Shown here piece after piece: positions 40,001 through 63,442 of a stretch of DNA of 64,000 nt (within the stretch, counting starts at the first letter, position 1; the number at the start of each line of letters is the position of its first letter). The DNA lies in contig OU744451.1 of the NCBI GenBank assembly GCA_916610825.1, positions 11,844,864-11,908,863 on the forward strand. Direction: 5' to 3'. This DNA comes from Haliclystus octoradiatus. Its lineage: Eukaryota; Cnidaria; Staurozoa; Stauromedusae; Haliclystidae. Both the position numbers and the translations under genes were made by a program. The notes below the pieces were generated by a model, which was not told the origin of the DNA, ran no database searches, and worked only from the letters and a program-made list of their open reading frames with translations.

Positions 40001-43000
40001 TCTTTGAATCGTTCAATTTCAAATGTATACTTAGACTGACTTGAAATCACTCAATTTGGGTAGAGCTATAGGTTACTCGAGTAGGCATTGTGAAGACACC
40101 ACAAATCACAATAAGTTTTGCAAACAACTCACTTAATTGGTTCACTCTCCTTTCTCGTAAGCAGTGCCTCTGAAACATGAGCTGTACCAATTATAGAGTT
40201 AACTTGAAATGCAATGTCATAAGATGATATACATTCAATTGATTTATGTTCACAACCCATAAAACTCAGAAAAACCAAGGCATTTGTATTAATTACCTCG
40301 GAACAATTGCTGCCAAATCATATCATCGCATTTTTTCTCTTCATTTTGTATTATATTCTCTTTTGACTTTCCTTTTAGTTTTGACAATGATTTCAATGGT
40401 GACTTTTTGGCAATGCGTCTCGATTTCATCTTCTTGTGTCCCTTACCTTCCTCTTCAAGTGAATATTCATCTAGCTGTATATTCATTTCCTTCTCTAATG
40501 AAGACAACTGACTACGCTCTGTAGCAATTGATTCCAAAGTATCTGTCACTATGGTTTTTAAGTTGTTAATTGTTTTTGCCATTGGTTTAACATGTGCTTC
40601 CATCTTCTTGTCACTTGATATAAAAGATGTAACTTTTCCACTATCAATAATATTTTGAGATTCACCTGAGTGTGCCTGGATTTCCTTTTTCTTACTGTAA
40701 GATGGACCATCACTGACTACTACATTACTGAATGCACCAAAGCCGCTGGCTAGTCGCTGTTGAGATGCACCAAAGCCACTGACTGGCCGCTGTTGAGATG
40801 CACCAATGCTAAATTCCCTACCCAGCCGACCAGAGGAACCACCAAATGAAAATCCACCTCTTGCACGGCTAGGCTGTGAAACACATCCACTGTACCCTAA
40901 AAATAGTGATGTTGCTTTATTGGCAGCACTTGAACTGAATAGCGTTGAACCAGTAGGAAGTGGATCACTTTCTCGATCGTCGCATCTTCTCGTACTAGAT
41001 GAGGAGATAGGAGAATAATACGGTGAGCTAGATGGAGTTGATGCAGCAGATATTCTTGATTGGCTGCTAGCTATCCTGTTTTGCTTGGAACGCCTTCCAT
41101 CAGATACAACTGCTTTCAAATGCTGGTTCTTTGTAATTTGTCGCAAAGAGGGTGATGATTCAGAAGAGGTTGAAAAGACAACACCTCCACCTGGTGTAGC
41201 TAATGTCTTAGGTGATTGAGGAAGAGGACAAGCAGATTGCGGAGGACAAGGAGGAGGAGGAGGATGAGCACCTGGGAAAGATCTGGTTGAATCGTGTGCT
41301 GCATCAGCAACAACTGACAAGCCTGGGAAGGGGGGAATTACAGCAGAACGGTATCGTATGTCAGATTTCTGAGGAGGAATGGGAGCTGCAGGCAGAGGGG
41401 GAGGGACAGACGATAAATTACTAACATTCTGTTTTGCTTTAGTCATATTACTTTTTGTCTTGATATTGACAGGAATTTCAAGCACACCTACAATAAAACA
41501 AACATGAATTATTCAAAATCTTGATAATATATACATCAGACAATAACAATGATAAGATTAATTTGGGATAAAGGTTTTGCATTTTAGATTGAAAACGCAT
41601 CCCAGATCTACATCCAATGGTTGATATTATTAACTTCGATGATCTAATGGAAAATATTGTTATGTTATCAAAATTGATCTTGATCATCTATACCTGCTGA
41701 TCACTTTATACTTTTTATCTCGAAAAGAAAACCTTTTATTGGTGAGCAAAATAGATGCTATTAGAATTGGAGATACAAAGTAGAATTCAATAGGGAATTT
41801 TTCAAAGGGAGCAAACAATCAACAGTGCATAACTGTATTGCTTCTCCATTGCATGATCCCAATCAAATTGTTAGAAAATATAAATAAATGGTTATAATTG
41901 TAAAAACTGCTTTAAAAAAAATATAAACTGCTTTATCTAGATGAATTCTAGCTACTTGAACAACAAATAATGAACAAATCATTAATTTGGATGTCAGTTG
42001 ATTGACATAATCTGTGGAAGACGCTAGTTCGCTCACAAATATCATCACCAGAGCACTGACAAGCTTCAGAGACTGATGGAAGAAATTAGTGTACCATCAA
42101 GCCTGTAGATACACCGTAGTAGGGGTTGAGATGAATATGACTATGGTAAAAAGCCTATTAAAAATTTAGTTTGTTATTTACATGATTTACTGCTCTACCA
42201 AATGCTGACATTGACCTGCAATTAGATTGTCCCTTCAGACATGGATGTTGTCCAAAAAACACAAACTCAAGCATCTATGCATTCTGAGTGTGATTCCAAA
42301 GCAGTCACAGTAACATTCAACTACAGTAGTTAATCTCTTATTGATTATTAAATTATATATGAAACAATGTTTAACTCACTAGCATCTGAGGTTATCATAA
42401 AATTCTTAAGGGGAGCAAATTCTTCTTGTTCAGCCTCAATCATCTCAGTTGCAAAGAAAGATTTTCCTAGTATTAAACACATCATAATAAATTAATGGAA
42501 ACATAAAATGTCAATACATTCCTTGCAAGTTGCAATGATAGCATTTCGTGAATTTTAGATATGTAGTTAAAATGTTTGAGTGAAGTTAAAATCAGCCGCT
42601 AGACAGAAGGCCTAAACAGGGGGATATGCTGATGCCCCTGTGAATGGAAGTGATAGTTACAGTGGATCAGGTATTAAGTAGATTACCACATGATTATCAT
42701 GCATGGAAAGGGAATATCCTTGCCAAGCATTTTACACCTACTACATATATACCGCAGTATACCATGGCTCACCCAACAAGGCCAAATACAAGACCAACTC
42801 ACAGAGGCAATGATTTTCAAGTTAATTTGATTGGTTTCCGAGATTTTTATTCAGATGGTTTTGCTGATGAAGATGTTCAGGTGTAGTTAATACAACTGAA
42901 TAACGTACCTTCCTCTGTTTGTGCGTCATCATTGTCCATTTCAAATGCATATTCATACGATAATGACTCTGTAGCTTCTTCTTTGCTACCTTGAACTGAA

Positions 43001-46000
43001 TTGAAAAAGATCAAATCAGCAAAAGTATATAAATTCTGATCAATTAGCTGAAGTAGTTTGGAAATATCTTTCTTTCAAGAACATCTCTTACACAACAGTT
43101 CACAAGTTCATTATTGTGAATTGCATGACTTTTAATTTTAGCATCATATTTCTTATTTTAAATTATTTTCTCTTTCGCTTTTATAATTCTGATTGATTTC
43201 TTCTTTTTATACAGTAAGCACAGTCTTGTAATTCCGGCTGTCATCCCGAGTTTTGCAAAAGTAAGTCAAGTAAGAGAACATAGTGTAGTTCAACATCAAA
43301 TATTAACAAACCTTCTGTTAAAGGTAGACCACCGTCTGTCAAAGTGCTACGGAGACTATGAATCTGATCCACCTGGATGGATTGCTGTTCCTCTCTTCTG
43401 TTGCCTCTCTCATTATTGCGTCGTTTTTCAACTACATAGTATGAAAATGAAGAGCATCTGTTATTGAAACTTCATGAAAACAGCTGGACAGCAATGTCCT
43501 TACTATCATCTAGCTAGGGGCATTCTATACCATCGATACAGATCCAATTACAGCGATCAGAAGGGTACAGAGGTATCCACAAGCAATTCACATTGAAAAA
43601 GCAATAGCGTAAAATCAAACAAAGGTCTTTCAATAGCAGTACTTTAAATTAGTTCCATTTGCTATTTTATTCAACTGGTATGTAGTAGGTGAAACTGATA
43701 CAATATTCGCTCTTTTTATGTTGCACACCAGTTTATATGTTGCTTTTTACAAGCATTGCTCTTATGTCTTTAAACTTTACAGCAGAAAATAGGAGGTTGT
43801 TTGGAATATCGAAAATGTAGACAGTTTTTTGAAGAATTCCAAAGGAAACTCATAGTACAGTACGCACACAAAGCCAAATACCTTATGAAGTATTTTGTTA
43901 CTTTCGCTGATCAGGAATACACACAAATTTGATGTTGCAAGCAATAAATCCTTGTCAGTATGATCCGTTAAGTAGAACAACCTGAAAATTGCATTGCACT
44001 ATTTGTAATTCTTAATGCACCGAGCTGATGTTCTGGATACTTGCAAAATTTAGATGTTTGATCAAGTTTGCAAGAAACTATCTGTAAAATAATTTATAGA
44101 TGAGATGAACATATTCAAAACCCTGATGGATTTATCTTCCCATTCAAACAATTTTTTGGTCTTGGTGCTTGGGTGAAGGCAGTTTTGTTTGTTATATCAG
44201 GCTCTGAATAAAGGGTTACCACACACTTGCAATGTTTGTATTAATATTTACTAAGCAACGGAAAGTTGGGAGATAGGAGTGAAGAGCTAAAACATCATGA
44301 GCTCTGAGCTCCGACCTCGAGCAAGTGATTTTTTAGCACATGAGTGTTTCACTTTGAAACTTTTGAAATCTACCTGGAAAAGATGCAGTTAAATGAGTAA
44401 AGTATAGTTGCAAGATGTCAGTGGTAAGCTTTCAAAGTGCAACAGAGACTTTGAAACCTCGATAAGTTGTTGTTTTCTCTCTCACTATGTGCGTCTTTCA
44501 AATACATACTACGAAAATGGAGAGCATATCTTATCATAGACTATTTCTTGGATTTACTTTCCTAGATTACATGTCACACCTCCCTTGAAATTCAACACCT
44601 TTCATAAATTTTGAGTTTACCTTGAAACAGTGTAGCCTATAATTGTATTTTATTCTGTGTGTGTTTTTATTTTGCATGCTGCACAACCAAGAAGTCATCT
44701 ACCACACTTTTCAATAGATAGAAAGATCTTGAGCTAAATCTTGTTTTGTAAATCGTTGCCATAATTGAGGTATTCATTGGATTGTTATCGGAAAATTATA
44801 ATTTATGTATTTTATCACAGATCAAACTTTTGAAGCTAGCGGTTTTCCCAGTATTCGGAGCCATGTTTTACCCTAGGATTCCATGCAAGCTCTTTAGACC
44901 AATCAGATCGCAGAAAATCTTTGTGATATTTGAGAAACTAAATTGATACCGTTTGTATAGTTTTAATATGATTAACAAACCTTCTGCTAAAGGTGGACCA
45001 CCACCTGTCAAAGTGCTACGGAGACTTTGAAACCGATCCACCTGCATGGATTGATGTTCCTCTCTTCTTCTGTTGTCTCTCTCATTATTGCGTCTTTTTT
45101 CAACTACTGTACATAATATGAAAATGAAGAGCATATCTAAGCCTCACATCATGAAAACAGCTTTACTATCACGCTATGTATGATAATGTATCAATCATTT
45201 CTTGGAAATACTTTCTCTGTTTACACATCACACCTCCCCTGAAATTCAACACCTTTCATATTGACATCTATGAATCAATTTAAATGAATTCTCCTTCTCA
45301 AAGTTATCCTTGTTAAAATAATTTACAAGAGCCATATTCACCTTGTCAAAAATCAAAACTTTTCCTGTTCCCATTCAATCACAACGAAGCAAGAAGGGAT
45401 GTGTTGGTAAGATACGAATGTAAGCCACAGGGAGTGTGGACTGAGGTGTTGTCATATTTGCGTAGACTTTACATTTCTTGGAGAATTAAGTCTACACGCA
45501 GGCTACCTGCATATTATACTCTCTCATTTCCAGACATGCAATCTATTAGCAGAAGGGCCTAGCCTTTAAACTCAGTTAAATATCCATTAACACTAATCAA
45601 CATTTAAATGCATCACATCACACTGGCAAAGCTGTGTGGCAGAATGATTACCTGGGTTTTAAATTAAAAATTAACTAGAAAATTAATTTGCCACAGTAAT
45701 GCTGGAAATTGGCGAAACAGTCAATCGGCAGAATGAAAATGGTCCAGCTAGTTCAGTGATTGGGTTAAATGATTAACTTTACTGGCAACAGAGGGTTTGG
45801 TGCATCACTTTCTGAAATTGCACAAATTATGAGCCCTTGAACTATTCAGATATACAGTAAAGATCACATGATTTGATATCTACAACTACTGATCAAATAA
45901 ATGATTATAAACATATTATATTGATGAAATGTTACCTGGCTCTGCCACACTCCTTTCAAAAGGACTGCGCAAGGAAAGAATACCACGTTTACTCTGTGCC

Positions 46001-49000
46001 TCATGACCAATGTAAGCATCTTTCTGGCCCATACCAACCATGACACCCTGAAAGATGAAGTTTAGAGATTAATTCATAAATCATTTAACTAATAAACCTG
46101 TAGCATTATTTGGCTCAGATGGAAGAAGCTGGTGATTCAAATAATAATTCTACTTCGCCAATGATATCAAGTCTTGACTTATATTATACTATCATCATCT
46201 TCCGGATTAAAATCAAGTTGAATCATAATACAACACAACTGATTTCTTAGCCATGCTAACCTGGTGTCTTGGTCTCCCAACTAGCGAAGGAAAAACAGAC
46301 CTAGGTGCTTCATCACCAGCAAAACCAGCCTATGGAAGATAAGGAGATAGTATAATTCTGCATGTAGGCTTTTTGGCAGCTGGCAGTAAAACAATCCTTC
46401 GACAACTCCTATATTTACATAATATATTATACCCCGTCTTGCATTTGAAAAAACTAGATCCCACATCCCAAGTGCCGATGTAATTATTGTAGTTATGCTA
46501 GTAATCTGCTGAAAAAACTTACAGCTTTCACACCTTAAACATTGCGATACTTTGAATTACGTTTTTAAGAGGCGATATGGTTGACACATTCATTTTTTTA
46601 TATTAACGACATAAAGCAATTCAATATAATAAAAAAGCGACATTGTATTATATGGTATAAGTAATTCAAATGTAGATCAAAATACGTATTTATATTGTAC
46701 TGTGACAAACAATTGTAATTTAAATTGTAATTGATAGCAAAAGTAAAAGTAATTGAACTAAATCCTACCTTGACTGAAGCCATGCCAGTGTCAATAACAA
46801 TTGGCATATGCCTTCTTTCAAGCTAAAGGAAATGGAAGCACAAATGTCAATGTGTATATTCAAAGGCAACCAATAAAAAGGACATAGCCTTGTGAAGCTT
46901 TAATATTATACGAACAAGTCATTCTAAAGCAAGAAAGAATACTATAAAAAGTATGGGAAATAAAATTTGTAGAATATTACAAATTATTTACATTTCTTTT
47001 AATTTGAAACATACTTGAGACTAAAGTAGTAGATTTCAAGTGAATAAATGCACTTCATAACTTTTATCTGTTTTGTCAGTTATTATATTGACTGATTCGA
47101 TTGCCTAAATCTTTTACTTGACCTCGTGTTTTATACGATAAACCGTAAACGGCATTCAAAACATTTTTTCAAAACAACGCAAGGCAAGAATGAATAATTA
47201 TGGATATTTCAAAAATTAAAATGATTTCACATTGATTCACAATGTAGTTTCCTAGGCCTGCTATAGACTTCACTTGTAGTCTGCCAACAATTTCGAGTCA
47301 TTATAATGTGCTTCTTCTGCATGGCTGTTAAATTATCAAGTCAAGTTAGTCATTTTCTTTGATCAGTTTTGTCTAATGCAAGTTCAATCGTTATCTAATC
47401 GTATTAGGCAACAACAATAAACAACATCATTGGTGTTGTCCACAGATACCGTTGAATCACATGTTCAATTTTAGCCAATGGGTGACTCGAATTTTGTCCA
47501 TTGAACGGAGTTTGAGTATTAAATATATATATTAGTTTAAATAGCAGATCAAAGATCACAAGTCTACTCCATTACTCTGAGTTTTGCGTAAATACGCTCT
47601 TCAGAGTAACCCTGAGTAAACTCACAGTAACGGAGTAAACTCGTGATCTTTGACCTACTATTTATATTGCTCTGCTTTTAGCATTGTGCACTCAAATTGA
47701 TGTTTTGCCCATACGATTACTTTATATATATTAGTTTATAATAGGTATCGGTTTATCTAATAGCAGACAAAATAGTGCTCAATGTCAACATTTGGCAGAG
47801 CGGTAAATAATAATAATGGTGATAGATCAAAGAAAATACATTCTTTACTGTAACTCCAAGTTTCACGCTACTGCGATCATCAGACAGTTTTTTATTCTAT
47901 GAAAAATGTATACATACATGATGGTTTTAACTCCTATTTCAGACTATATGTGAATGCCGCGCTATTGTTAATTATAATGTTATTGTTTAAATACAATGGT
48001 GTAATTTTTTCTTTTGAAAATAGATGATAAAATAAATAAAATTGTTTCCTATTACATCAGTTGGTTGGTTATTATTATGTTTTTGTTTCTTTAAAATTAG
48101 CTAAATAGAATTTGTTTTCGTGACGACATTTAGAAATTAGTTCGGATTTTCGATTTAATAGTTTTTCTTTTGAGCATATAATGTGATATTTTTCCAACAA
48201 ACATAAATGACACTTTTTTGAAATGTTGCTATATGGCTTAGCATTGGCGATGGGTGACCATTTGACTGTATACTCGCTGTTGTTGTCCTTCAGCTCCCAA
48301 ATATATTTTGATAGCTGTGTGCTAGTGCTATATTTTCTGTGTTTAAACGTTGACTTGTGTTGTGTATAGCGCACTTTAAATGTATCCTCTGTTAAGCCGA
48401 TGTAGCACTTTCCCTCTTCGTCTTCTGGAGTGGTGACTTTTGCCTGGTAAATGATTCCCTTCATTTGGCATCGATTATCAAATGGACAGGATCTTTTGTT
48501 TCTGCAATTGCAAGGTGTGGCATCGGTTGTGTTGTTATTTTCGCTATTTATTATTTTGTTATTGTGACTTTTCAGAATTATGTCCATATTATTAGTGCAG
48601 CTATAGCTGACTTTGATTGTGTTACTATTAAATATTTTGCTAAGATTATTTGATTTAGGAAAATGCTTTTTAATTAGGTTAAAAAATGATCGGCCAATGT
48701 TTGTTTTTACGCTCTTATTGTAAGGCGGGTTGAACCATATCATCTTTCTGTTTCTGTTTCTTTTGCTGTTTTGTGGCGTAGGGCGTGGGAAATAGGAGTT
48801 AAAACCATCATGTATGTATACATTTTTCATAGAATAAAAAACTGTCTGATGATCGCAGTAGCGTGAAACTTGGAGTTACAGTAAAGAATGTGACTTCTTT
48901 GATCTATCACCATTATTATTATATATTAGTTTAAAATTATTCATAACGTTAGTTTCCCTCAGGTAGCTCTTTTGGTGAAATTTAAACACATTTGTTTTTT

Positions 49001-52000
49001 CTTCTTTATAATCTTTAATGGCGCTATAAATATTGTAGCCAAGATTAAACACGGACGATGCGAATGGTTGCCGTTTAGGGGACCTAATATTACCTTCTGG
49101 AAATCTGAGTGTATTGGGCTTTCCCTTTGGAAAAATTATACATGGTGTGGTAGCTTAAATCGATGTTCTTTACATGACAAATTGCCAGGAAGTGCCTTAA
49201 CACAAAGGAGAGGATGCAGGAGTCAGGTGATTAACACCATGTTATTCACATGATACTGTAAATGAAAGGTTTAGGGCGTACTTCAATTAGCACTGTTCAA
49301 GCTAGCTTGCAAGACAGTAGCATTGTCATTTGTCCGACAGTTTTTTTTAATCAATTTAGATTCAATTTGCTAGTGATTGTTCATTTGTCCGACGATTTTT
49401 GTTATCAATTTAAATTCGGTTTGCTAGTGATTGTTCAAAATTCGAAAGTTGCTAGTGATTGTTCACTATTCGGAATTTGCTAGTGATTTCTCACTATTCA
49501 GAAATTGCTAGTGATTGTTCACTATTCGAAGCTAGATTAGGACGTCCAGAATGACTAGTTAAGTCCCCACCTACCTCCTTCATTAATAAATAACAGGTTT
49601 GTATTTAATCGTACGATCATTCAAGCTTGTATGTGCATGTGCAGATTTCAGGTATCATATGGTCAGGGGGTGTTTCCTGATCATTCGCATTGTCACCTCT
49701 GCAAGCTAAGCAAGTGCAAACTATCATCCGCAATTTGCAAATATTCAGTCAATATGCCTCGCAACTCGAGAAACTCACAAGATGCAAGGATGGTGGGATC
49801 AGAAAATTTAAAATCCCACCCACCCTCGTCTTGATAACACTATATAAGGTATTATCTATTTCCACTGTTAATCAGTGTGACTGGTACTTGGTTGGGGCAG
49901 GATAGGGTTCTCAAAGTGAGTGCGCACACCACCAAGCAAATGACTCCCACCAACCAAGCACCTAACAAGTAAGTATAACTCATCTACTGGTGATGGTTTA
50001 AACATACTTTAAATGAAGTTGGGTGGAATTCTGTAAGCGAACATTTTCAACATGTAAACATTTGAAGGAATAAAATTGACCATCGCACCTTGCATGCTTT
50101 AAGTTGAAAAGTGAATGCCATTTTTCAAGCAACAACTAGTGCAGTGAATTAGTGCACCACACAACCTATTTGAAGGACAAGCTCAAAGGCCACAGGTCAA
50201 TTTTATGCCTTTAAGCAGGTTTGAGTTGTGATCATTATTAACGACTGACAATATTTACCTCTATAGTTTCATCTGTAACCATTGGTGATATTGCATATGC
50301 TGTTTCCATACCCCCCAAATAGTCATCATCATCCTCTTCATCACTGTCACCAGATGTATCATGTGAACTTGAATATGAAATTGCCGTGCGTCTCATTTTA
50401 ATCATTTTTTCATAGCTTTCATCAGAATCAACTTCATCAACATCCATAGAAACACTACGTGTGAAAATATTAGGCTGATTAATAACATCAAACCCACTTC
50501 AGAGTAAATATGACTATATCAATAGTGCATTTTACTAACAGTTCAGTTTGGATAATACAAAACATATTACAAAACATAAACAGGACATCAGTTGGTAAAA
50601 AATGCTTAGTAGCTTGATAATGCAAGTGGCCCTTAAAGTTATAAAGAATAACAAATTATAAGCTATTAGCATCATCTAAATTTTCATTGCCCCTGTGAAA
50701 ACAATTAATGAGTTTACATGTTTTTTTAAACATAAAACATTTGTTCTAAAGTTGAAGAACTATTTCCAAGAAAAAGTTTATGTAATGTAATTTATTAATT
50801 AATTTAAGTTCTATTTAATTTGCCCTCTTTTAGTGTTAAATGCTATATTTCCTACTTCTGTTGACCGTAATTCTTACATAAGTTAATATTTATTTAAACT
50901 ATGATTTTTGATATATTTTCAATGTTATTCCAGCAGCTTCATTTTTAGCGCATGCTAACCATTATAAAAGTTAGCAACAGAGCAGAAGCAGAACATTTGC
51001 AACATAAAAATAAAGAATAAACACATCATATGAAGGTGAAATGTCTTAGACTAAAAATGACTACCTCCCACTATTTTATATGACCTAGATATTCACAATG
51101 AAGATGAGTGAATCTGACCAGAATGCAAACTCACATCAGATCACATTCAATTTAAATGTTTCACTGAGAACTTCTTGTTTACATTATTATATTTCAAGGC
51201 TTTGCGAAGATATGTTGCACAAGCATCAACTGCATGACTGAGGTGGTACTTTAGAAATTGATGCACCTTACCCACATTCAACCATTTCTCTATCATCTGA
51301 CATATCATCCATACCACTGCCATCACCAGAAGATGTTGCAGATGAAGACAAATCTGATTGGATAGCAATCACAGTAATGCATTTAATTAAGAATGATATG
51401 TGCTGAGATTGTTTACTCAATTCCCATACTCAGCGACTTGTAGGCGAATTATAATCTCACTTTATCGTAAGTGAATTAAATACAGCATTAACTTGCTGAG
51501 TTGGTATAAAGACTATGACGTGACAAACCCTTTTAATTTGCTTACATTGCAAGTTATTTCCACATATAGGCTTAAAGACCAATAGTTCTTATTTACCACA
51601 ATAGTGGATGATTGTAGCATAAAACCCATATATAATTTTTACATACATCAAAAGTCCCAAATAACTATCTAGAAAATAATTTACTTTGATGTCTCACAAG
51701 CAGCATGCTAAGTAATGCCAATAGAATACCAGTACAGCATTCACAGAATCACAGAATGAATAATCATTGTGTAAATTGTATACCTCAGAACATGCACTCT
51801 TAAACCTTCTCTGCAGAGCTACATCCAAACATACATCAAACGTACCTGAATCTTCAGATGAGTCTGATAGATACATTAACTCTTCAGATCCACCATCATT
51901 ATCCTGAAAGTTTAAAATTGAGCAACATCAAGATACTCAATACTACCTTCATGTGAGAAGCTTTAAATTAGACAAATGTCATCTTCACATACAGTATTGA

Positions 52001-55000
52001 TATTTAGATGACCCATGACTCACAAGGATCATATCATATTAACATAGCCTTGGGAAAACTGGAAGTAGCCCCAGCAAAAGTTGATCCTCAACAGGAACGA
52101 CAATGACAAGATAGTACACAATATCAATTGAGTTATACTATATGTACAGTCAGTAGATAGCACAGTAGTTAGTTCTGAACAGATTATTACAATGCCACTG
52201 ATCATGTTCAATTTTTTCAACCTCAAATATCCTGCTATTTATAATTCTATTTTAACCATGTTTGTGAGATAAAACCTGCAATTGTGTGCCATCAATATAT
52301 GTAATGTATAAGTTCATGTGTAGTCTCTGGTCTGTGCAATGCATAATATGTAGATTTTACTAGTTGCCACCTCCATGAATGCATTCCCGGGCATCAGTCA
52401 TATGATATTGGAATACATCCACTCAAAGAACACATCCACAAATACTTTTTACTAGAACAAAAGTATAGCATTTTGGCTTTTTTGAATAGTATAATTGTTT
52501 GCTTGTAATCTTGAACTCTTGCGAGTCGTGGCTACGTTGCTATTGCCAATAACTAAAATGAGGTAGAATTCAATAGTGTCAACAAATCAATGAGCAAAAT
52601 ACATGCAAATTGCAGACTACATTATGTGTTGATATTTAATATGAGCAATCCCAAAAACTAGAACTAAATGCTTGTGACTACCTTGTATTCTGTTACTTCA
52701 CGCTCTAAAGATTCTAGAGCCATGTAAGGTAAGAAGTCGACTGTTTCCCTGGCAACCAAGTTGTCGAAAGAAGGATGTGACCCATCAAACGTCTCTCCCT
52801 GTGAAAAAAACAAAGTATGTCAGGACACATACACAATTAACACACAACAACTACATATATCTATTAGTTGTTGTAAAGATATGCCAGTGAATAGCATGAA
52901 TAGCAAACACTTGATTTGTGATGATTATAATAAATTGTGAAGGAAACAGGGATTGAGACTAATTTCAGGTATCTCTGTGATCAACTTTTTTCAAACTTGT
53001 TTAATTTTTCAAACTTCAAAATAGTTTTACAATATAAAGAGTAAACCCGCTTCAAGTGCAAATCCTAATGGAAATTGTTTAGCAAAGACTAAAGAATTAT
53101 TACTAAAGAACAATATGGTTTACTTGCTCGGAGGTCAACCTGCACCCAATTATTAGAAACCCTGCAGCAATGGGGTATAGCCATTAATAATTGTTTAAAA
53201 TTTGATTCTGCTTATATCGACTTCAGTAAAAAATTTGACACAGTTTGTCACCAGAAATTATTAATCAAGCTGAAGGCTTATGGTATAGATTTTGAACTAT
53301 TGGCATGGATTTCTTCTTTTTCAACTGGCAGAACTCAATCTATATCAGTTGGAAATTGTTTATCATCAGCATCGAATGTTGTCAGCGGCGTTCCTTAGGG
53401 TTCTGTTCTAGGGCCATTATTATTTATCTTATTTGTCAATGACATTGTACATTGTATCGAAGGCGATTGTAAAGTTAGCTTGTTTGCAGACAATGCCAAA
53501 TTTTATTGTTCCCGTGGCAATACAATTTCAACCGATTTGACAATGACATTAGTAAATCTCTACGAATGGTCTCAAACGTGGTAGCCTGCGTACCAGCCCC
53601 AAGGTTTTTTCTGAAACCACAGGGTCTGTGAACTAATGTGTGATTTTCAGCCCAGCAAGTTCTCAAGAAATTGAAATATAATTTATGCGTTTCTTATTAA
53701 TCATTCATTTCATCATGGCGGCTGCTCAACTGACTACGGCGTGTTTTGATGAAGATTTGTTTTCAAAGAGTTGTGATTATGTCTGTTCTCTATTTTTTAT
53801 CGAAGAAATGTGTTTGGAACAAAGGCAGGCGATCAAAGCCTTTATTAAAGGAAAGGATATATTCTTTAGTGCCAACACAGGTTATGGGAAGTCATTTGTT
53901 TTTCAATCCCTGCCGTATATCGTAGACGCGAATAATTAACCATAGGTGTGATCTTCATTGGACAGAAAACGGTGTTTTAGTTCACAGACCCTATGGTTTC
54001 AGAAAAAACCTTGGGGCTGGTACGCAGGCTACAAACATGGCAGCTACGGATAGATTTTGAAAAATGTTCAGTTTTAACTACTAATAAGCATAATGTAGAC
54101 GGTGTTGAATATGTTTTGGGTGGTTACACTCTGCCAATTGTCAGCAGAATTCGAGATCTTGGGATAATTATAACGTGGGACTCAAAACCCTCATCTCATT
54201 GCTCGATGATAGCAGCAAAGCATATTTAAGATCCTGTCTCATTATGGAAAGCTTTATTTCAAGGGATGCAGTTCTACTAATAAACGCATTCAAAACTTAT
54301 GTTAGACCAATGTTAGAAACATCATCATGTTCTTGGAGCCCTTGTCTATTAAAGGACATTCAAATTATCGAAAGGGTAGAGAAAATTCACCAGATTTGTA
54401 TGTAATACCACAAACTTGGCTTTCAAAGATTACAATGACAGATTAAAGCTTCTGAACCTCGAATCGCTAGAATTAAGACGGCTAAAGATAGATTTAGTTA
54501 TGATATATAGAATAATGCATAATTTACTTGATTTATCTCTTTCCTCTCTAAATTGTAAATTAATTGCAAATAAATATTCAATGCGCGGTCACTCACAATG
54601 ACTTTATTCGATGCAAACGTGCCGGTTAAGCAGCACAATTAATTAATTTAGTCAGAGAGTGATACCTTGGTGGAATACTTTACCTGAGTCTGTGGTGAAC
54701 TCAAAATCACTTCAAAGTTTTAAAAAATCCCTCGCGGAGATGGACCTGTCGGAGCATTGTAAAATGTTTCCCTAACTATTATATAACCATCAACTTTCCT
54801 TTGATATCATTTATTTTTATGTTAATCTTACTTTTGTTATTGTGTAAGGCTGTATGCAAGTGGAATTATTTGTGAATTTAATCCCCTGTATTTGCCTGTT
54901 ATATTTTTTATGACAAATAAATCAAATCCAATATCAAATCAAAGACTTGACAACAAAGTAGTTAACGAAGAATCGAGACCAGGTTGCAGATAATCAAGAA

Positions 55001-58000
55001 TTTCATTTATCCAAATTACACTTAAGTGGATTACAATGTAGGCTATTTATCTATACGCTATATTATATGTAGAGAATATTACACGCTGTTTCTGAATTAG
55101 AAGCATGAGTTAAACAGAATCATTTAATTTTTCTAGTTTTTCTTCATATTGTACTTGAAAATTTTTACATTGTTATACAAACTCTTCTCTTTAAATTGAT
55201 ACTGGTACGTGATGATAGAAACTGGATAAGGGATGTTATACATCATGATAAATAATGTCATAATGTTTAGCATTAAGTAAAAGTTTACCTTTTCTCTATG
55301 TTCAATTGCAACAAAGCTTGTGAATTGTGTGACAATCGAATGTTTGACACTGAGGGAGATGATTTTATCTTTCATTGTTCTTTTCTTTGCCTACAAATAC
55401 AAATACAATTAACAACTTCTCTAACAAATAACTATTCAATAACTTAACTTCATTTCTTTACATGATATTCACAGAAAAAGTAAGATTGACCCTCTTCTAA
55501 GGAAATGAGTAATTTGATTTATTATGTACTTGTCATACTATTGCAGTACGACCATGCTTATTGCTCGGTGCCAGATATCGACCGAGCTGTATATAATGAA
55601 GATGGAGTCAGAGATTACCGATACAAACTTTTAAACTGTAACTTCAAAGTTTCATTAAATATGAAATTTGTTCAACTGTTCGATGACTGCGTGCAGCTTC
55701 AAGTTATCAAAACATGTAGTATTCTCAAATTTTATTAAGCAAAAGAAACTATATTTGATTATTGGTTATTGTAACTAGGCCGTCAATTTTAACAATGATA
55801 TTTAAAGAAAATAAACAAACAAGAAATAAGAAAGCAAATGTTTGGAATTTTAGTAGAAACTTGATTCTGATTCATCACAATTTTGTACATTCAAAACTAC
55901 TATTAGAGAGGGTCTGGTACTTATTTTAAACGAAGTGGATAATGTTCCGGCAGCCGGAATCCTGAGTGCTAGAGATAATGTTCCGTGCGTCTTCTGCGCA
56001 TGCTTAATGTGCTGTTTGCGTTTCTCTCACATTCATTCAAGATGCAATGGCGATGGACGGTCCCTCGACCACGTTAATAACAATTTTGTTCATAACAAGT
56101 TTTATAATAGAATATAAAATAATTCAAAGTGCTAGAGGTTGAAAACACTTTATATGTGGGATTCACAACGCTGGATGCCACCGTTCTTCCAAACTTATAG
56201 AAAAAGCGAACGAACACGGCTTTGGTTTTGAGTTTCGGGGTTTTGACTTTTGGTGTACGACAAAATCAGAATTGGTTTGGTGTACGCATGTAGCATCAGT
56301 TACAGGAAAAGGAAATGACTAATAAGTAATTATCCCATATTATTACAAATTACCATAGTAAAAATGTTTTGAAATATTGTTAGGCAGCATAAATATTCGC
56401 TAAAACCCTTTAAGCGTGCCAAATAAATGTCACGACACTCAAACATTAAAAACGCTGCGCTGGGTTGCATGGCTGAAAAGCTTCGATAAATCAAACACAG
56501 AATAAAATGATTAATGCATAGATATGCTGAATATCATTTTTCTTAATATTTATTCCAAACAGTCGATCCAACTTACGGTGTGGGTGAATTTTTTTACAAA
56601 CTTTTTACGGTATAATTTTGGATCGATCGACACAGCCATGTTTACTATCTACACACGCATGCGCAAAGGACTCACGGAACATTATCTTTTGAAGACAGCT
56701 TTCCGGCTGCCGGAACAATATCCACTGCGTATTTTAAAACTGTTCATGAGCATGTCTGAACATTTTTATCCCCCTGAAGAGTCCTTCATGCATCTATTGT
56801 CCACTTTTAAAGTCAAACAATATCCTCACAAGATAACAGCAAGTATCCAACTGGGGATTTGAAATTAAAAATCCAAATCTGGAGATCTGTAATCTAAGCT
56901 AATTCTAAAAATCATGCAGATGACTACCATCAATGCAAGCAAAAATATCAGTTGTGTACCTCATGATTCATTTTGTCTGCATCAAGGCTGCCCTCCTCCC
57001 AGTCACGGATCACTGCTTTAGCAGCAAGACGGTGTAGAATCTAGAGAAAACACTATAATGTATCTATAAAATATTACATTATAAATATATTTAAAAAGTC
57101 TGGTTTGGGAAATGTCTGAAAAACGTTTTGGTGTTTAAAAATGGTGCTTAACATTGTTTGTACCATACATGGAATCTGTCTAGCACATGTTCAACTAGAT
57201 ACTTGAATGGTTACTAATAATAAAATCTTCAATTCACCATTAAAATGAGTGACAAAATTAGAAAACAACTTCTGACTTCCACAAAATAACATATCTTCCA
57301 TTGAAAATTAATAAATGGGGAGAGGATCCAAGCAATAAATCTGCTATTGCAATTTATGCAATCCACAATATCAACAGAGAATTGATCAAACACTTGCAAT
57401 ATATAACAATAATGAAATGCTAACTGACCAACCTTTCCCTGTGTCTTGTTCAAATCTGATGTTGCCACAATAGTCGAAAATTCAAGCCTTCCAATCTTTG
57501 CTTTCAATTCAGCCTGCAGTAAGAAGAAGATTGATGGTTGTACTGTATTCGAATTCCACGTTTTGCAATTGGCTTTGTTATAAATATATTCCATTATTTT
57601 TTAAGACGAGGATAAAGCTTCGGGTGCCGTGGCATTAGCAGTTTGGTAAAGCTACGGAAGTTTACCTAGCATGCGCGGCACTCAATTGAAATTGAACCTT
57701 TATCAAATTAATTCTATTACTATTATTGTCTTTTTAATAATAATTGATCCTGTTACTTATCCCAAATTTGTATTATTTAATCCAGACATTGAATAACATT
57801 CCTAATTTCCAATCAAATTTATCTGGTGAAAGAAAATATGATTTTTGATTGTAATTTCAAATTGCTTTGGTGTGCCCGTTCATTCGGCGGCCTTGGGAAG
57901 CAGATTGATTTACTGGAAATACATAAACTAAAACAGTCAAATTGTTCTGAAATATTCCATTAAAAAAATATACTACTGCGCTATGCGCTATATCTTCAAT

Positions 58001-61000
58001 TTAGTTTGGATATATTGTCATTGAGGTGCGGTTTGATTTTGAGAGCAAAGGCTAAAATCGTTTTTTGTAGTGAACTTTCAAAACAAAGGAACAAAGAACT
58101 TCCTGCTGTAAATTTATCCAATTCGTATTTTTCATCTATTTAGATAAAAATAGATAAATAGATAACCTGTTTATTTTGACACTGTAAAGCTCAAAATAAT
58201 ATCAGCTATTTTGTTAATTTTATTTGATATTTCCATTATATAGACATATGACATATGTGAGACATTTGAAAATGTGGTCAATTTCATGCTTTGGAAGTGT
58301 TCAAGAACTCCTTAATGTTTTTCCAATGAGATGAAATCCCTCGTAATGGTATCATCTACATAGTACATATACTTTCCTTTCAGATGCTTGGTTAGTGAGG
58401 GGGTGGCAAGATCTAGGTGCGAGCACCCATTGACAGAAAGCAGACTGACACCACATTCAGTATTCAACATTACTTGCATCATCAACCATGTACAGTCCCA
58501 CTGCTAAGCCATTGGAATTCCTAATTATACCCATCAGTAAGTATGAGACCATTTTATGCTGACATTGCAGCACATGATTGACAAACCAGAGACCCCAGGC
58601 ATTATCAACAACCCCTGCTAAACCTTTGCTTATCCCCATTCCAACATAGACCATGGAAGTCGTATATACTTCGCTCCGCTTTCCTTTTTCAGATATTACC
58701 CCAGAACGAATTTTCCTTTATTTCTATTGTGAATAAAACTAATATTTAAAATTTAACAAAATAAAAAAAGTGATATAATAATGATGAATGGATACGAGGT
58801 TATGTTGATACATTTACTTTATGTTCCACACAATCATGGCATTCAGATTGATGAAATTATTCACAATGATTTGGGATATTACTTACCATATTACAATGAG
58901 GAATAAACCCATAGACAACCTGACGATTACCATCAAACAAAGATGGGATGAAAGTTGGTGCCTTGTAAAAATTGAAAAATAATATTGGAATAATTGATGG
59001 AATCTAATTGATGCAGATTTGAATTGTGATAAGGAATTGATATAGAACGATTAAAATTATGATTAAAGAATGACTTTAACTCAAATTAAATAGCTTTCTA
59101 GTTTTCAAGTTTGATTCAGACACGCTGCCCTGATATAGAGAAACTGGCCAAATACCCAACAATTAATTTAATATAGATTAGGGCTGGGCTAAAAAATAGG
59201 TTTAAAATGCCTATCAGATTAGTTTACGATTACATAATGAATGTAGCTTAATCACCTGCAAATGCTTCTTCTCCTCATGATCATATGTTACCCATTTAAC
59301 ATCAATTGACTGCAATGCTGATTGTGATGCATTGCGTAGTTGTATTTTAACCTTTAAACAGAGTGTACAATCCATACAAAACTATTGAAATGCTGCATTG
59401 TACTAGCTACTGAATAAGTATGGAAAAATGGAAATTATCAATTGAACCTGTAACATAACTGAATAATAACGCAATTTAAAGGTCTCTACTTCTCAATATC
59501 AATATTTGCTCGCTCGCTCACACAACTCTATGTTAGAGTCCTCATGTTGAATATACTTTATGTCCCCATTTTGATCATATAAATTAAGTTTACAAAGACA
59601 AAATGAATTATTATACAGTATTTAAAGCGGTAAAATGAACTCTTTTCAAGCAGAAAAGGTGTCCCAAAGGTGTGGGCATAGCTGATTTGAATGTTAGAAA
59701 CTTTTGATATTGCGCAAAAGATACGCTTTTTAAAGTTTTGAATTGTCCTTTCTCTATAGTAAGCCCTCTTGTCATTCTGACTATTGGTTCTCAGAGTTTG
59801 GAAAAAATGACTGATCGAAAACAGGGTAATCATTTTCACCATTCGTCATTATTGAGCTTCTGATAACTACCCGGATTTGTGTTAAAATTTTCCGTGCCTT
59901 CATGCGCACTTCGAAGGATCTACAGTAAAATTAATAGATAAAAAACACCATACCCATTCACATATAAGTACGTATAATGTGAATTTATTACAACACAGCA
60001 ATGGAATAGATCACAATAACACTGTTTTACAACCCTTCATCATTACATTGTGAAACACAGTTCATGAATCTTTTAATGAAATCTCTTGTTGAACTGTGTC
60101 TTATGGGTGAATTTACAATCTTCAGAAATTGTGACTACCTTAGCTTCCCATTTTGATTTAGCTTTTGAATCAAAATATGAAAATGTTCCTTTTCCAATTT
60201 GAGCCATATTGCGTAAGAAATGTTTGTTCACACAAGAACTGCAAACCAAAGAAAACATGAGAATTGCAAAACTGTTTAATGTATAAATTGACATAAGGAA
60301 CTAATGATACAGTTCACTGGTATGATAAAAACTCATTGTGGTGTGACTTCCTGAAGTGGAACCTCACCCAATTCCTTGACTGAATATTCTGAGTGATGAT
60401 GGTAGCCTTTTTATCAAACCCAATGTCAGTGATTCATCACCAGCATAACCATCAGATATCAAAAAGAGGTTTTTGTGACTGATTCCATCATCCTTTGTTA
60501 GCAGATTGATATGATGAATAACACGCCACAGATCAGTGCTACCATACTGAGCATGTTTACCCTATAGCAAAATTATAAATTTTCTGTAAATATTGTACAA
60601 AATATGAACTGATTAAAAATCAAAAATACAGCTTTATATATTTTTAGCTTCAATTTTCTGCTTCTGTTTGTGTTCTGTGTGTTGCTGCGTCTCTATTGGA
60701 GAAGAAATCATACTAACAACAAGTGGAATTGGCTATACAATATCTAAATTAATTATATATGATAAAACCTGAAACCCGTTTGACATCAATAAACAAACCT
60801 CCGTACCTAAATAAAATCTAGACAAGGGTAAGAGGGACAGAGCAGACCAGACAACTCTGACTAACAAACATTGCATTTCAATAATTAACAATTATCGAAC
60901 AAGATTGAGCACGAGCTACGACCTACGGCTTCGGCGGATAGCACACACTTCGGCCTGAAAAGTGTCGTGCAAAATCGAGTTTGATAATTGTTTTATTATT

Positions 61001-63442
61001 AATCGCATTTTAATTAATCCTTTGAAATATTCAAGAACAACTGCGCTTTGAGAAATATTACGAATTCACCACAACAAGTTTGTTTAAATATGTCTTCATA
61101 AAATTTAGGGACTTTAACATTATCAATTTGATTAGATTAAGACTAATTGCATTTCGTTGTCCTCTTTGTGATTATTCGCATCTTTTTTTATCTAACAAAC
61201 TTGATAGCTTCACTTTTGTCTGTCCTGTTAATGTAGTAAATCTTTATTTTAAAAAGTGAAAAATTTGTAAAACAGAGTTTTTCTATCACGCCAGTCTTGA
61301 AACCTTGGAGATGCTATTGTGTCGACATATTGTTGCGAATTAGCTCTACCCTATTGTCTCAGATAGTTACGTCACATTCAAAGACATCAGGAATTGTCAG
61401 TGTTTGATTAACCAATAGGAAGCAAGAAAACATTCGAAAAAGCTTGCCATTAAATAAATAAACTTGCTCAATCTTGCATCTAAAATATTTGCCATCTGCT
61501 CAAGAATGACTAATTTTGGTGAAACATAAGAATGGCACAAAGTTTGTATGCATCTCAGAACCTTATTATAACAAGAAAGACCACCAACTTTTGGCTTGCA
61601 ATAAGTAGCCTACTGCAATACAATTCACACTACAACATCATTTCTCAATTTTTCACAATAAACTTTTGCTTACAATTATAAACTACTTTTCCCCTGAGGA
61701 AAAGGGAAAACTTGTTCCAAATGCAATGCAATTGCTGCGTTTAGCTAGCTCCAATATTCATATGAGCAGCATTTAATAATTATGTGATTAATTATAAATA
61801 CTGTCAAATTGACAATGGTATTGTGAGATAGCAAATAAATACATAATCTTTAGAAAAAAGAAAGCTTACAGCAATAAACTCATCTGCTTTTGAAACATTT
61901 GTGTCTGTTAATCTTTGACAAGAAGGAAATACTGCTTCAAACCCTGTATAGAAAAGAAACAAGTTAACATCTGATCTGAATGGTATAATAACATAGATAA
62001 ATGTTAAGGCAAATCATACACATTATTAGTTGTAACTCAAGCTTCGGAGATAAATTGAACAAAGCATATCATTTAACATAAAATCATAGAATGTGATCTT
62101 GATCTGCTGATTGGTTGTTGTTGATGTTTGTGTCAGGCAACGCAAAATTATGAAGTTACGGTCATTATTTTGAGCTTTTCAGTGTCAAAATAAACAGGTT
62201 ATCTATTTTATGAAACAAATAGAAGACCGTTGTCTGTGTTAAGTACTCTGATAAGAACACTTAGGGTGCTATGAGACCATTGTTGTAAATACTCGTTACT
62301 AAAGTAACGCGTTACTCGTTACTCGTTACTTTTGGAGTAATTTTAGGAGTAATTAGTTACTTTTTTGAGAAAAGTAATAAGTAATCTAATTGATTACTTT
62401 TTGAAGTAACGAGTATTATTTGAGAAAAAGTAATTGACGTTACTTTTCAAATTACTTTTATGATTACAAAATATTTGCTTTGTTGTCTTGTGATAATTTT
62501 CAAAGGCGTTGCTGTCACTAAGTTCCGCTTTTTATTGTTCATTCTGCGATGCAATCTCACATTATTTGCAACTTTCACGAGAGCTATTCAAACCAGGTGA
62601 ATTGTGTGATATATGACCAATAAACCCTATCCCATAACCTATTCTTCTCTGATCTGACATTGTTCTGTTGATCAATAGATTCAAAATAGTTTTTCACTTT
62701 TTATTTGAGTGAGTTTCGAATATTGAAAAGATGATGTAAAATTTATGGCTATATTAATAGATTGATCCGACAAGAATAAACCATTTTAATAAATCAAATG
62801 AAACCATTTATTTGGCAACCTTATTAAAAAGTTTTCAACGTCAATTTATCTTCTGCTGCAGTCACCAGTATTAAATTAATATTATTGAATCGATCGTTCC
62901 TCTTCGTAAAAAACAAGATGGCCGCCATAATTGTCAAAACGAGACATGTCATTATCGAGAGGGAGGCAATATCTTTTGTTTCACAAGTTAAAGTAATCAT
63001 GAAGTAATTAGTAATTAATTACTTTTTTTGGGAAAGTAATTAGTAATTGTAATCAATTACTTTTTAGGCTGAAGTAATTAGTCATGTAATTAGTTACTTT
63101 TGAGGAAAAGTAATTTGTAATGTAATTTATTACTTTTCAAAAGTAATTCTCACATCACTGTATGAGACATTGAATAGGCCAACATTACTCGCCTGGCAGC
63201 TTGTAACTTTCAAGCCTCTTTATCTATATGTTAAGCACAGATATGATGATGATCTCTGATTCTAAGAATTACAGAGTTAATAATATGATTTATACAAACC
63301 ATTTACGTAAAATTTACTCTGTCATTATCAGCACATTATTACATATTTTACCTGTTCCAAATACAAAAACATTGAATTTGTAATTCTTTGGCAGGCGAGT
63401 TATAGATAACATTAAAAGCTTCTTTGCATCTGGTACAACATC
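37036..63442 (-). CDS. PARP4: PARP4 (vault poly-ADP-ribose polymerase), 3' half, with an inserted actin segment
   Basis: Exons in transcript order: 63442-63352, 61943-61870, 60561-60368, 60238-60139, 59351-59256, 58961-58887, 57513-57433, 57040-56960, 55390-55289, 52798-52682, 51903-51846, 51353-51272, 50454-50259, 46822-46769, 46329-46261, 46047-45936, 45106-44981, 43431-43312, 42995-42909, 42466-42380, 41487-40297, 40169-40133, 39482-39366, 38746-38619, 38409-38328, 37358-37036. Phases agree at all junctions except those of the 39482 exon. Domains: vWA end ([28 protein letters not shown]); the conserved post-vWA region ([46 protein letters not shown]); an acidic stretch; the actin-like insert; a proline-rich linker; the C-terminal vault-binding region ([30 protein letters not shown]). 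These follow human PARP4 block by block. In the family, PARP4 mono-ADP-ribosylates targets inside vault particles and its C-terminus binds major vault protein. The N-terminal half lies beyond the window. Confidence 0.9.
37770..37901. repeat. 132-bp copy of part of PARP4 exon 41487-40297, in last intron
   Basis: This intronic segment matches 40851-40982 in the same orientation at 131 of 132 positions (one G/A difference). It begins AATCCACCTCTTGCACGG and ends TCTCGATCGTCG. Both limits fall inside the source exon, not at splice sites, and I see no poly-A tail or clear target duplication. It lies between exons 38409-38328 and 37358-37036. It is probably a templated insertion during break repair, or a gene-conversion-sized duplication. 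Near identity means it is recent, or else an assembly artefact. Confidence 0.9.
39479..39814. mobile_element. 336-bp TIR element abutting a PARP4 exon
   Basis: The left end AGCCTGCATACCAGCCCC and right end GGGGCTGGTACTCA then CAGGCTA match the termini of the element at 53582-54031, extended by a GGTTTCAGAAAAA-type block. Flanking 9-mers ATGTGCTTG (39470-39478) and ACATGCTTG (39815-39823) agree at 7 of 9. The right end has an internal duplication of the GGGCTGGTACTCA phrase. On the minus strand, the last bases of the element form the CAG that would serve as splice acceptor for the exon starting at 39482. Confidence 0.7.
40297..41487 (-). other. PARP4: Large proline/serine-rich linker exon of PARP4
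   Basis: A 1.19-kb exon encoding 397 residues: a proline-rich N-terminal half ([28 protein letters not shown]), a serine-rich middle, two tandem [12 protein letters not shown] repeats with the neighbouring [12 protein letters not shown], and a lysine-rich C-terminal part with a coiled-coil-like stretch ([20 protein letters not shown]). Human PARP4 has a proline-rich region of similar place and character, including a GSAAPPRQFDASQF-type phrase. Proline runs are potential SH3/EVH1/profilin ligands; with actin-derived sequence nearby this is a tempting but unproven link. Confidence 0.85.
43312..45106 (-). repeat. PARP4: Tandemly duplicated PARP4 exon (two live copies, one decayed)
   Basis: Exons 45106-44981 and 43431-43312 encode almost the same peptide ([18 protein letters not shown] versus [17 protein letters not shown], then [15 protein letters not shown] versus [15 protein letters not shown]). 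Both are phase 1 to 1, so either or both can be spliced in without frame change. A third, eroded copy lies at about 44420-44520 and has lost its frame. Flanking intron DNA is also shared (the CATGTCACACCTCCC-type block near 44570 and 45226), showing that a unit of roughly 0.7-1 kb was duplicated. The peptide is a charged, probably helical, linker. Confidence 0.85.
44600..44800. other. Intronic stretch, nothing further seen
   Basis: Apart from the duplicated-exon flanks, the introns between 43431 and 45936 show no coding sequence, RNA gene or element termini that I can support. A short imperfect inverted pair GCGTAGACTT (45459) / AAGTCTACACGCAGGCTA (45487) may be another worn TAGCCTGCG-type hairpin. 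Confidence 0.35.
45936..46822 (-). other. Actin-derived segment inside PARP4 (three exons)
   Basis: Exons 46822-46769, 46329-46261 and 46047-45936 join at phase 0, 0 and then 1, in frame with PARP4 exons on both sides. They read [12 protein letters not shown], then [18 protein letters not shown] with RPRHQ, then [18 protein letters not shown] with SKRGIL. This aligns without gaps to actin residues about 8-72: part of subdomain 1 and nearly all of subdomain 2 including the DNase-I-binding loop. Of the first nucleotide-binding loop, D11, G13 and K18 positions remain but S14 and G15 are changed. The rest of actin is absent, so no ATP-binding fold can form from this piece alone. The RHQ/GVM junction coincides with the well-known actin codon 41/42 intron. 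Human PARP4, as I know it, has no such segment. Confidence 0.88.
47540..47663. repeat. Small fold-back element, about 124 bp
   Basis: Arms of about 38 bp: GATCAAAGATCACAAGTCTA on the left against GGTCAAAGATCACGAGTTTA as complement of the right, continuing through a TACTCCRTTACTSTGAGTTT stretch. The centre contains further CTCAGAGTAA-type palindromes. No target duplication was settled. It lies in the large PARP4 intron (50259-46822). Confidence 0.6.
47806..48930 (-). mobile_element. Penelope-like element fragment (GIY-YIG endonuclease) with inverted ends
   Basis: The minus-strand frame 48830-48075 (251 codons) matches the C-terminal endonuclease module of Penelope-like retroelements: a [18 protein letters not shown] linker, the [11 protein letters not shown]...C cysteine motif, GIIYQAKVT, the GIY-YIG-type [17 protein letters not shown] with conserved arginine, [22 protein letters not shown] and [16 protein letters not shown]. 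Reverse transcriptase is absent. The first roughly 135 bp of the fragment (48930-48793) recurs inverted at the other end (47806-47943), an arrangement common among Penelope-like insertions. The frame itself is unbroken, so the insertion is fairly young. Confidence 0.88.
49327..49531. repeat. Minisatellite with TTGCTAGTGATTGTTCA core
   Basis: The core TTGCTAGTGATTGTTCA occurs five times. The first two are in a longer unit of about 56 bp that starts with ATTTGTCCGAC; the rest are in a unit of about 30 bp ending CTATTCG. It is intronic to PARP4. Confidence 0.8.
53582..54031. mobile_element. 450-bp TIR element carrying a captured gene fragment
   Basis: Nearly perfect inverted ends of about 55 bp: TAGCCTGCGTACCAGCCCCA at the left, and the complement of it at the right, continuing through an AAGGTTTTTTCTGAAACC block to a GGTCTGTGAACTA block. 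The 9-mers CAAACGTGG (53573-53581) and CAAACATGG (54032-54040) flank it, 8 of 9 identical, and removing the element restores LINE coding continuity (YEWSQTW followed by QLRIDF). The interior holds a helicase-like open frame (listed separately) and no transposase, so it is non-autonomous. Confidence 0.88.
53685..53939 (+). pseudogene. RecQ-type helicase N-terminal fragment captured in a TIR element
   Basis: An 84-codon frame. It has an ATG in good context at 53715 (ATGGCGGCTGC), an acidic leader, and then the helicase opening [20 protein letters not shown] with a Q-motif-like EQRQAI, followed by the Walker A motif [16 protein letters not shown]. The order and spacing fit superfamily 2 RecQ-like helicases (motif 0/Q, then motif I). 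It ends at NN-stop right after the motif, as an exon running into intron sequence would. Motifs Ia to VI are absent, so it is no enzyme. Most likely a host first exon picked up by the transposon. Confidence 0.7.
55931..56729. mobile_element. 799-bp TIR element with 9-bp target duplication
   Basis: Ends CGAAGTGGATAATGTTCCGG (left) against CGCAGTGGATATTGTTCCGG (complement of right). Similarity runs about 75 bp inward with a second GATAATGTTCCGTG block. The 9-mer TATTTTAAA flanks both sides exactly (55922-55930, 56730-56738). No transposase; the 112-codon frame at 56524 crosses the right end and is a by-product. It lies in the PARP4 intron between exons 57040-56960 and 55390-55289. Confidence 0.82.
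58137..58200. repeat. Inverted dispersed repeat, copy 1
   Basis: ATAGATAACCTGTTTATTTT followed by GACACTGTAAAGCTCAAAATAA matches, in opposite orientation, 62160-62212. Both copies lie in PARP4 introns. Probably the end of a MITE or SINE family; no termini were settled. Confidence 0.6.
60876..61010. repeat. Fold-back repeat of about 130 bp
   Basis: Arms ACAATTATCGAACAAGATTG (left) against ACAATTATCAAACTCGATTT (complement of right), then a GCACGA motif on both sides, around a GC-richer centre. It may form a hairpin; the type is unknown. It lies in the intron between PARP4 exons 61943-61870 and 60561-60368. Confidence 0.55.
62160..62225. repeat. Inverted dispersed repeat, copy 2
   Basis: TTATTTTGAGCTTTTCAGTG then TCAAAATAAACAGGTTATCTAT is the inverse of 58137-58200. 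It ends about 50 bp before the hAT-like element at 62278. Confidence 0.6.
62278..63160. mobile_element. 883-bp hAT-like MITE with perfect 8-bp target duplication
   Basis: Ends CATTGTTGTAAATACTCG (left) and CAGTGATGTGAGAATTAC (complement of right), close to the CAGTGRTGTGA consensus of many hAT ends. The 8-mer TATGAGAC flanks both ends exactly (62270-62277 and 63161-63168). Inside, a GTAAC/AGTAATTAGTTACTT motif is repeated many times in both orientations near each end, so the element can fold extensively. No transposase. It is in the PARP4 intron between exons 63442-63352 and 61943-61870. Confidence 0.9.

Follow-up and report, generated by a model that had tools for sequence, protein, structure and literature searches.

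The gene for PARP4 (vault PARP) in the staurozoan Haliclystus octoradiatus carries, in the linker that precedes its C-terminal vault-binding domain, three short exons that encode a segment of actin. These exons lie within a stretch of 64,000 nucleotides of contig OU744451.1 (assembly GCA_916610825.1, positions 11,844,864 to 11,908,863; hereafter the window, with positions counted from its first letter). A re-reading of the DNA confirms, at the level of sequence, that the cassette formed by the three exons is a genuine in-frame, GT-AG-bounded piece of actin subdomain 2 with an intact DNase-I-binding loop (D-loop) sequence. We consider it reasonably likely that the PARP4 linker holds an old and constrained actin hairpin and subdomain 2 with its D-loop, working as a binding module. 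Here, we present the evidence for the cassette and its place in the gene, the pattern of substitution within it, and its probable origin, together with the alternatives that each of these lines of evidence brings into question.

Joined in order, the three cassette exons (Table 1) encode 78 residues, 69 of which align without a gap to actin residues 7-75. The original prediction, made from the letters alone, had given about 65 residues matching actin 8-72; the gap-free match stands, and its extent is slightly longer. Coordinates, frames and phases were as claimed, as were the GT-AG splice sites, which comprise the acceptors ctttag, ccatag and tttcag and the donors gtagga, gttagc and gtaaca of exons 1, 2 and 3, respectively. 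The cassette is matched by Pfam Actin with an E value of 4.1e-16 (59 bits, the cut-off being 27), and it matches PDB chain 1yag_A, yeast actin, with an E value of 6.7e-30; by these scores the resemblance lies far beyond chance. Compared with the conventional actin encoded elsewhere in the same genome (C5:25082149-25083784), 49 of the 69 residues are identical (71%). In actin, residues 33-69 make up subdomain 2, and through the D-loop one subunit reaches into the barbed-face cleft of its neighbour. This part is preserved in the cassette, whereas the P1 loop, DNGSGMCK in actin, has decayed to DTGMASVK, and the 69 residues fall short of the four subdomains and ATP-binding P1 loop of a conventional actin. 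About 80% of actin, namely subdomains 3 and 4 and most of subdomain 1, is absent as far as homology searches can tell, in agreement with the original prediction: with the H. octoradiatus actin as query, no further piece was found in 144 kb (the window and 80 kb of DNA upstream of the gene's exons in it), and the scored candidates on the rest of contig C7 included none. With its P1 loop decayed and without subdomains 3 and 4, the cassette cannot act as actin.

We assign the surrounding gene to PARP4 (clade 5), as had been proposed, because human PARP4 in PDB is matched at four places along its length. These are the PARP1-like helical domain (E 1.2e-17, the best of two distinct matches, both to PARP4), whose exons lie about 75 kb past the end of the window; the VIT region (E 6.4e-42, with a Pfam VIT match at C7:11930129); the region from the vWA domain onward, which extends to human residue 1218 and lies upstream of the cassette (E 5.9e-72, with a Pfam VWA_3 match of 3.5e-13); and the C-terminal domain downstream of the cassette, whose match to human residues 1577-1704 (E 0.0027) is its sole PDB match up to E 1. 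Within the window, a modelled chain of 24 minus-strand exons from 63442 to 37036 has GT at 23 of 23 donors and AG at 24 of 24 acceptors, with phases in agreement throughout. It yields one frame of 1238 codons, closed by a single terminal stop, that spans the protein from its vWA domain to its C-terminal vault-binding domain. The cassette forms residues 450-527 of this modelled C-terminal part. The order of parts is that of human PARP4 (helical domain, putative ADP-ribosyltransferase [ART] domain, VIT, vWA, long linker, and a C-terminal domain interacting with major vault protein). The putative ART exons (RGLLLPK...GAGIYF and DDEFVVY) were matched solely by a provisional human probe sequence. 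None of the 16 Pfam PARP matches in the genome falls at this locus, probably because the ART domain is split over exons, and a provisional probe for the BRCT/WGR region gave only one 11-residue match (E 2.5). The genome has one VIT match besides that in PARP4, and it also contains a major vault protein gene, with four shoulder-domain matches at two loci. PMC10450202 describes the human PARP4 linker as intrinsically disordered and does not use the word actin. In the PDB comparison the human PARP4 alignment ends before reaching the linker upstream of the cassette, and the 535 residues of linker downstream of it have no match up to E 1.

The reading frame of PARP4 depends on the cassette. The acidic exon directly upstream (50454-50259) ends in phase 0 and the charged exon directly downstream starts in phase 1, and therefore the two cannot be joined in frame without one or more intervening exons. 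The connection claimed earlier, from the acidic exon through the cassette to the charged exon, agrees in phase at every step; the acceptor of the charged exon may be at 45106 or 45103, a choice that leaves the frame unchanged, and the duplicate of this exon at 43431 has the equivalent of 45103. When all three cassette exons, or exon 3 alone, were removed in silico, a stop followed about 30 codons on; the frame stayed open when only exon 1 or only exon 2 was taken out, and isoforms skipping one or the other are possible. The exon architecture of PARP4 thus needs the cassette for an open frame, and we infer that the cassette exons are spliced into the PARP4 message as modelled. The intron before them, 3.4 kb long, contains a transposable element as well, a setting that would suit the remnant of a separate, broken actin gene residing in a PARP4 intron and left out of the messenger. 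We regard such a remnant as very improbable, given that without the cassette the PARP4 exons on either side disagree in phase and reading runs into a stop, that the three exons have in-phase GT-AG ends, and that no more actin is found in the window or in the 80 kb beyond its end. The frame and splice sites are intact, unlike those of a pseudogene, and about 1 kb separates the cassette from the end of the transposable element (47804-48925). Capture of the cassette by this element was ruled out, as the element lies outside the cassette exons.

The pattern of change within the cassette points to constraint. Over 69 codons compared with the H. octoradiatus actin, the proportion of synonymous differences (pS) is 0.71 and that of nonsynonymous differences (pN) is 0.20; over codons 20-69, numbered from the initiator Met as are all positions in this paragraph, the values are 0.73 and 0.11. 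The D-loop and its neighbours (residues 36-52) are identical at 17 of 17 positions despite eight synonymous codon differences, so that the D-loop is carried intact, as originally noted. The 20 amino-acid differences are unevenly distributed, with 8 falling in the 51 sites from 19 to 69 and 12 in the other 18 sites (Fisher P 1e-4), and seven of those 8 are conservative (D to E, A to S, I to L, S to A, V to I, T to S and K to R), the exception being D to H. At the decayed ends, 4 of 11 residues are kept toward the P1 loop and 2 of 7 past residue 69. The longest run of identity, tested under even placement and free of any choice of window, has a probability of 0.023. This pattern fits long purifying selection on subdomain 2, centred on the D-loop, and the unevenness of the changes argues for selection within PARP4 rather than before, when the segment was still part of an actin. 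Neither the upstream nor the downstream linker has a match to human PARP4, and the cassette therefore stands out as constrained against its neighbourhood. Both that unmatched linker and the decayed ends would also suit a functionless passenger, an actin fragment that was inserted in frame into a tolerant, disordered region and does nothing there. A neutral passenger would be expected to change evenly, whereas the differences observed cluster outside sites 19-69 and leave the D-loop untouched, and we consider this explanation improbable.

The cassette does not appear to be a recent acquisition. Its internal boundaries correspond to actin 18/19 and 41/42. The RHQ/GVM junction, at 41/42, is a site that we, like the original prediction, take to be a classic position for an actin intron, and on this ground the cassette had been thought to derive from a genomic actin copy by exon capture. 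The introns of the one conventional actin gene detected in H. octoradiatus follow Met-numbered codons 85 and 122 (84/85 and 121/122 of the mature protein); positions 18/19 and 41/42 have no intron. The cassette shares 72% identity with this actin over 68 residues, and 75, 71 and 68% with three full-length actins (L026, L027 and L028) from genome contigs and contigs of metagenome-assembled genomes (MAGs) of unverified source. Because the H. octoradiatus actin lacks both cassette introns and does not clearly resemble the cassette more than the other actins do, recent exon capture is not supported by the sequences compared. Additionally, synonymous divergence between the cassette and this actin is near saturation, which rules out a recent duplicate of it. 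The search of genome and MAG contigs returned five loci, the three full-length actins and two with pieces of actin (L029 and L030). All five were rejected as relatives of PARP4: the C-terminal half of the protein matches them only over the cassette and at most 17 neighbouring residues, and the VIT probe matches none. No other cassette-bearing PARP4 was present among the prokaryote, viral and phage collections searched; viral contigs queried with the cassette and the VIT region contained no relative, and phage records contained none.

A similar pairing of domains has been noted before. A survey from 2014 (PMC4245714) records, in the passages available, that Salpingoeca rosetta, Capsaspora owczarzaki and Acanthamoeba castellanii have PARP4-like proteins with actin or actin-binding domains, and names actin as an additional C-terminal domain in some PARP4-like proteins. 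The gene described here follows the pattern given in those passages, in that a PARP4-like protein has an actin domain C-terminal to VIT and vWA. It differs from the protist proteins in belonging to an animal, as the 14 Wnt loci of its genome show, in having only actin 7-75, split over three exons, and in having a recognisable C-terminal vault-binding domain downstream. That survey was the one description of actin in PARP4 that we found; passages of PMC10539598, PMC10450202, PMC2964712 and PMC10711553 do not describe it. As far as the survey passages go, the pairing of actin with PARP4 is thus not new in kind (PMC4245714), and since unicellular relatives of animals have been reported to have something similar, an ancient origin is more likely than a recent accident. 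These observations lead us to view the cassette as an old accessory module of PARP4 that would have been reduced to actin subdomain 2 in this lineage and lost in vertebrates.

The competing account of origin that deserves most attention is a capture specific to this lineage, by exon shuffling from a lost or undetected actin with introns at 18/19 and 41/42, independent of the protist cases and followed by retention. Both internal boundaries of the cassette are phase 0, and one of them is at 41/42, where other actins too are interrupted by an intron. Tandem duplication of the charged exon that follows the cassette shows the linker to be plastic, and the passages of the protist report give no evidence of homology for the cassette segment. 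Neither cassette intron exists in the H. octoradiatus actin, however, synonymous divergence is near saturation, and an independent gain is less economical when the domains are already reported in PARP4-like proteins of unicellular relatives (PMC4245714). We consider such a capture possible though doubtful and weight it about half as heavily as the ancient module. Several points nevertheless count against the old, constrained binding module that we favour. The wording of the survey passages is actin or actin-binding domains, so homology between the protist domains and the cassette is assumed. The D-loop window was picked after the data had been seen, and the longest-run test gives only P 0.023. 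The pairwise pN and pS values would also be compatible with a more recent capture from an actin paralogue that had diverged under selection and was subsequently lost. Furthermore, subdomain 2 on its own may fold differently from its counterpart within actin, and the putative ART exons, about 46 kb downstream of the helical-domain exons, were seen with the provisional probe only.

If the cassette is a binding module, its D-loop, exposed in the linker, would dock in the cleft on the barbed face of actin or on a protein that binds the D-loop. Lying between the ITIH-like region and the vault-binding domain, the cassette may in this way tether PARP4 to actin, and through the C-terminal domain of PARP4 the vault would be tethered as well. 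PARP4 is itself an ADP-ribosyltransferase, and the cassette might instead serve as a built-in substrate or decoy, there to be ADP-ribosylated or to attract actin-modifying factors, a proposal that concerns function only and fits either origin. The D-loop residues Met44, Met47 and Lys50, presumably modifiable, could be counted in its favour; there is no sign in the sequence of modification rather than binding, and the well-known toxin target, which we take to be Arg177, is outside the cassette, and we think this role highly unlikely. A bolder proposal, which we advance only tentatively, is that selection has preserved a free-standing actin D-loop over roughly the whole history of animals, that vaults dock on actin by means of it as a false subunit, and that vertebrates have lost it. 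The role of PARP4 in vaults, and that of vaults themselves, is unsettled, and the cassette turns the 2014 remark into a testable link between vaults and actin. If conserved, it would also be a natural case of a single actin subdomain kept alone. The primate POTE-actin fusions likewise join actin to another protein; there a whole copy is appended at the C-terminus, whereas here subdomain 2 only is placed inside a linker, in exons.

Table 1. Exons of the PARP4 gene in the window, listed in order of transcription
Feature	Position in window	Strand	Remarks
End of vWA, rest of ITIH-like region, first linker exon	51846..63442	minus	11 exons
First six of the 11 exons	63442-63352, 61943-61870, 60561-60368, 60238-60139, 59351-59256, 58961-58887	minus	
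Last five of the 11 exons	57513-57433, 57040-56960, 55390-55289, 52798-52682, 51903-51846	minus	
Acidic linker exon	51353-51272	minus	phase 1 to 2
Acidic linker exon directly upstream of cassette	50454-50259	minus	phase 2 to 0
Cassette exon 1	46822-46769	minus	54 nt, phase 0 to 0; actin first strand and decayed ATP-binding P1 loop
Cassette exon 2	46329-46261	minus	69 nt, phase 0 to 0; actin 19-41; 20 of 23 residues identical to H. octoradiatus actin
Cassette exon 3	46047-45936	minus	112 nt, phase 0 to 1; D-loop and remainder of subdomain 2
Charged linker exon directly downstream of cassette	45103-44981	minus	phase 1 to 1; acceptor at 45106 also possible
Tandem duplicate of charged linker exon	43431-43312	minus	phase 1 to 1
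Two further linker exons	42989-42909, 42466-42380	minus	each phase 1 to 1
Long proline/serine-rich exon	40297..41487	minus	
C-terminal domain interacting with major vault protein	38746-38619, 38409-38328, 37358-37036	minus	three exons, the last with the stop

Between 43312 and 45260 the charged linker exon is duplicated in tandem together with its intron flank, and a degenerate, partial third copy is found near 44503-44606; the two full copies share 91% and 95% DNA identity over two stretches. Because the charged exon is present twice and again as a degenerate copy, the linker must have been reshuffled. The element in the 3.4 kb intron before the cassette (47804-48925) has inverted arms of 137 nt (47804-47940 and 48789-48925) that are 97% complementary, and encloses an open frame of 266 residues (48875-48075) that has no Pfam match over the cut-off and that we take, from its appearance, to be GIY-YIG/Penelope-like. 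Inspection by eye also showed that part of the proline-rich exon (about 40851-40981) recurs in a short segment between the last two PARP4 exons, at 37770-37900.

The searches also brought to light actin sequences in other unexpected places. In two bacterial MAG contigs of 473 and 222 kb, L029 (9224-10279) and L030 (9407-10483), isolated actin D-loop peptides occur without a full actin fold. The L029 frame has two similar copies of the peptide, the L030 frame also has a decayed stretch resembling actin 239-280, and both have a signal-like stretch near the N-terminus. These frames suggest that a D-loop peptide can be kept alone elsewhere. A third bacterial MAG contig, L028, encodes at 1613-2857 a full-length actin resembling those of eukaryotes (Pfam Actin 2.8e-94; 53% identity with the H. 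octoradiatus actin) with an N-terminus that is Tat-signal-like in appearance, and the adjoining frames read as ATP-synthase-like. Together with Haliangium BARP, as passages of PMC3035250 present it, L028-L030 resemble the cassette in placing actin or actin D-loop sequence where it is not expected, and differ from it in being bacterial and in an unrelated context. In the H. octoradiatus genome itself the searches, which give lower bounds, recovered at least one conventional actin gene, that on C5; a single such gene in an animal genome of 262 Mb with 14 Wnt loci would be unusual if real. Wnt gave 41 matches in the same genome, 14 of which cover the C-terminal half of the model.

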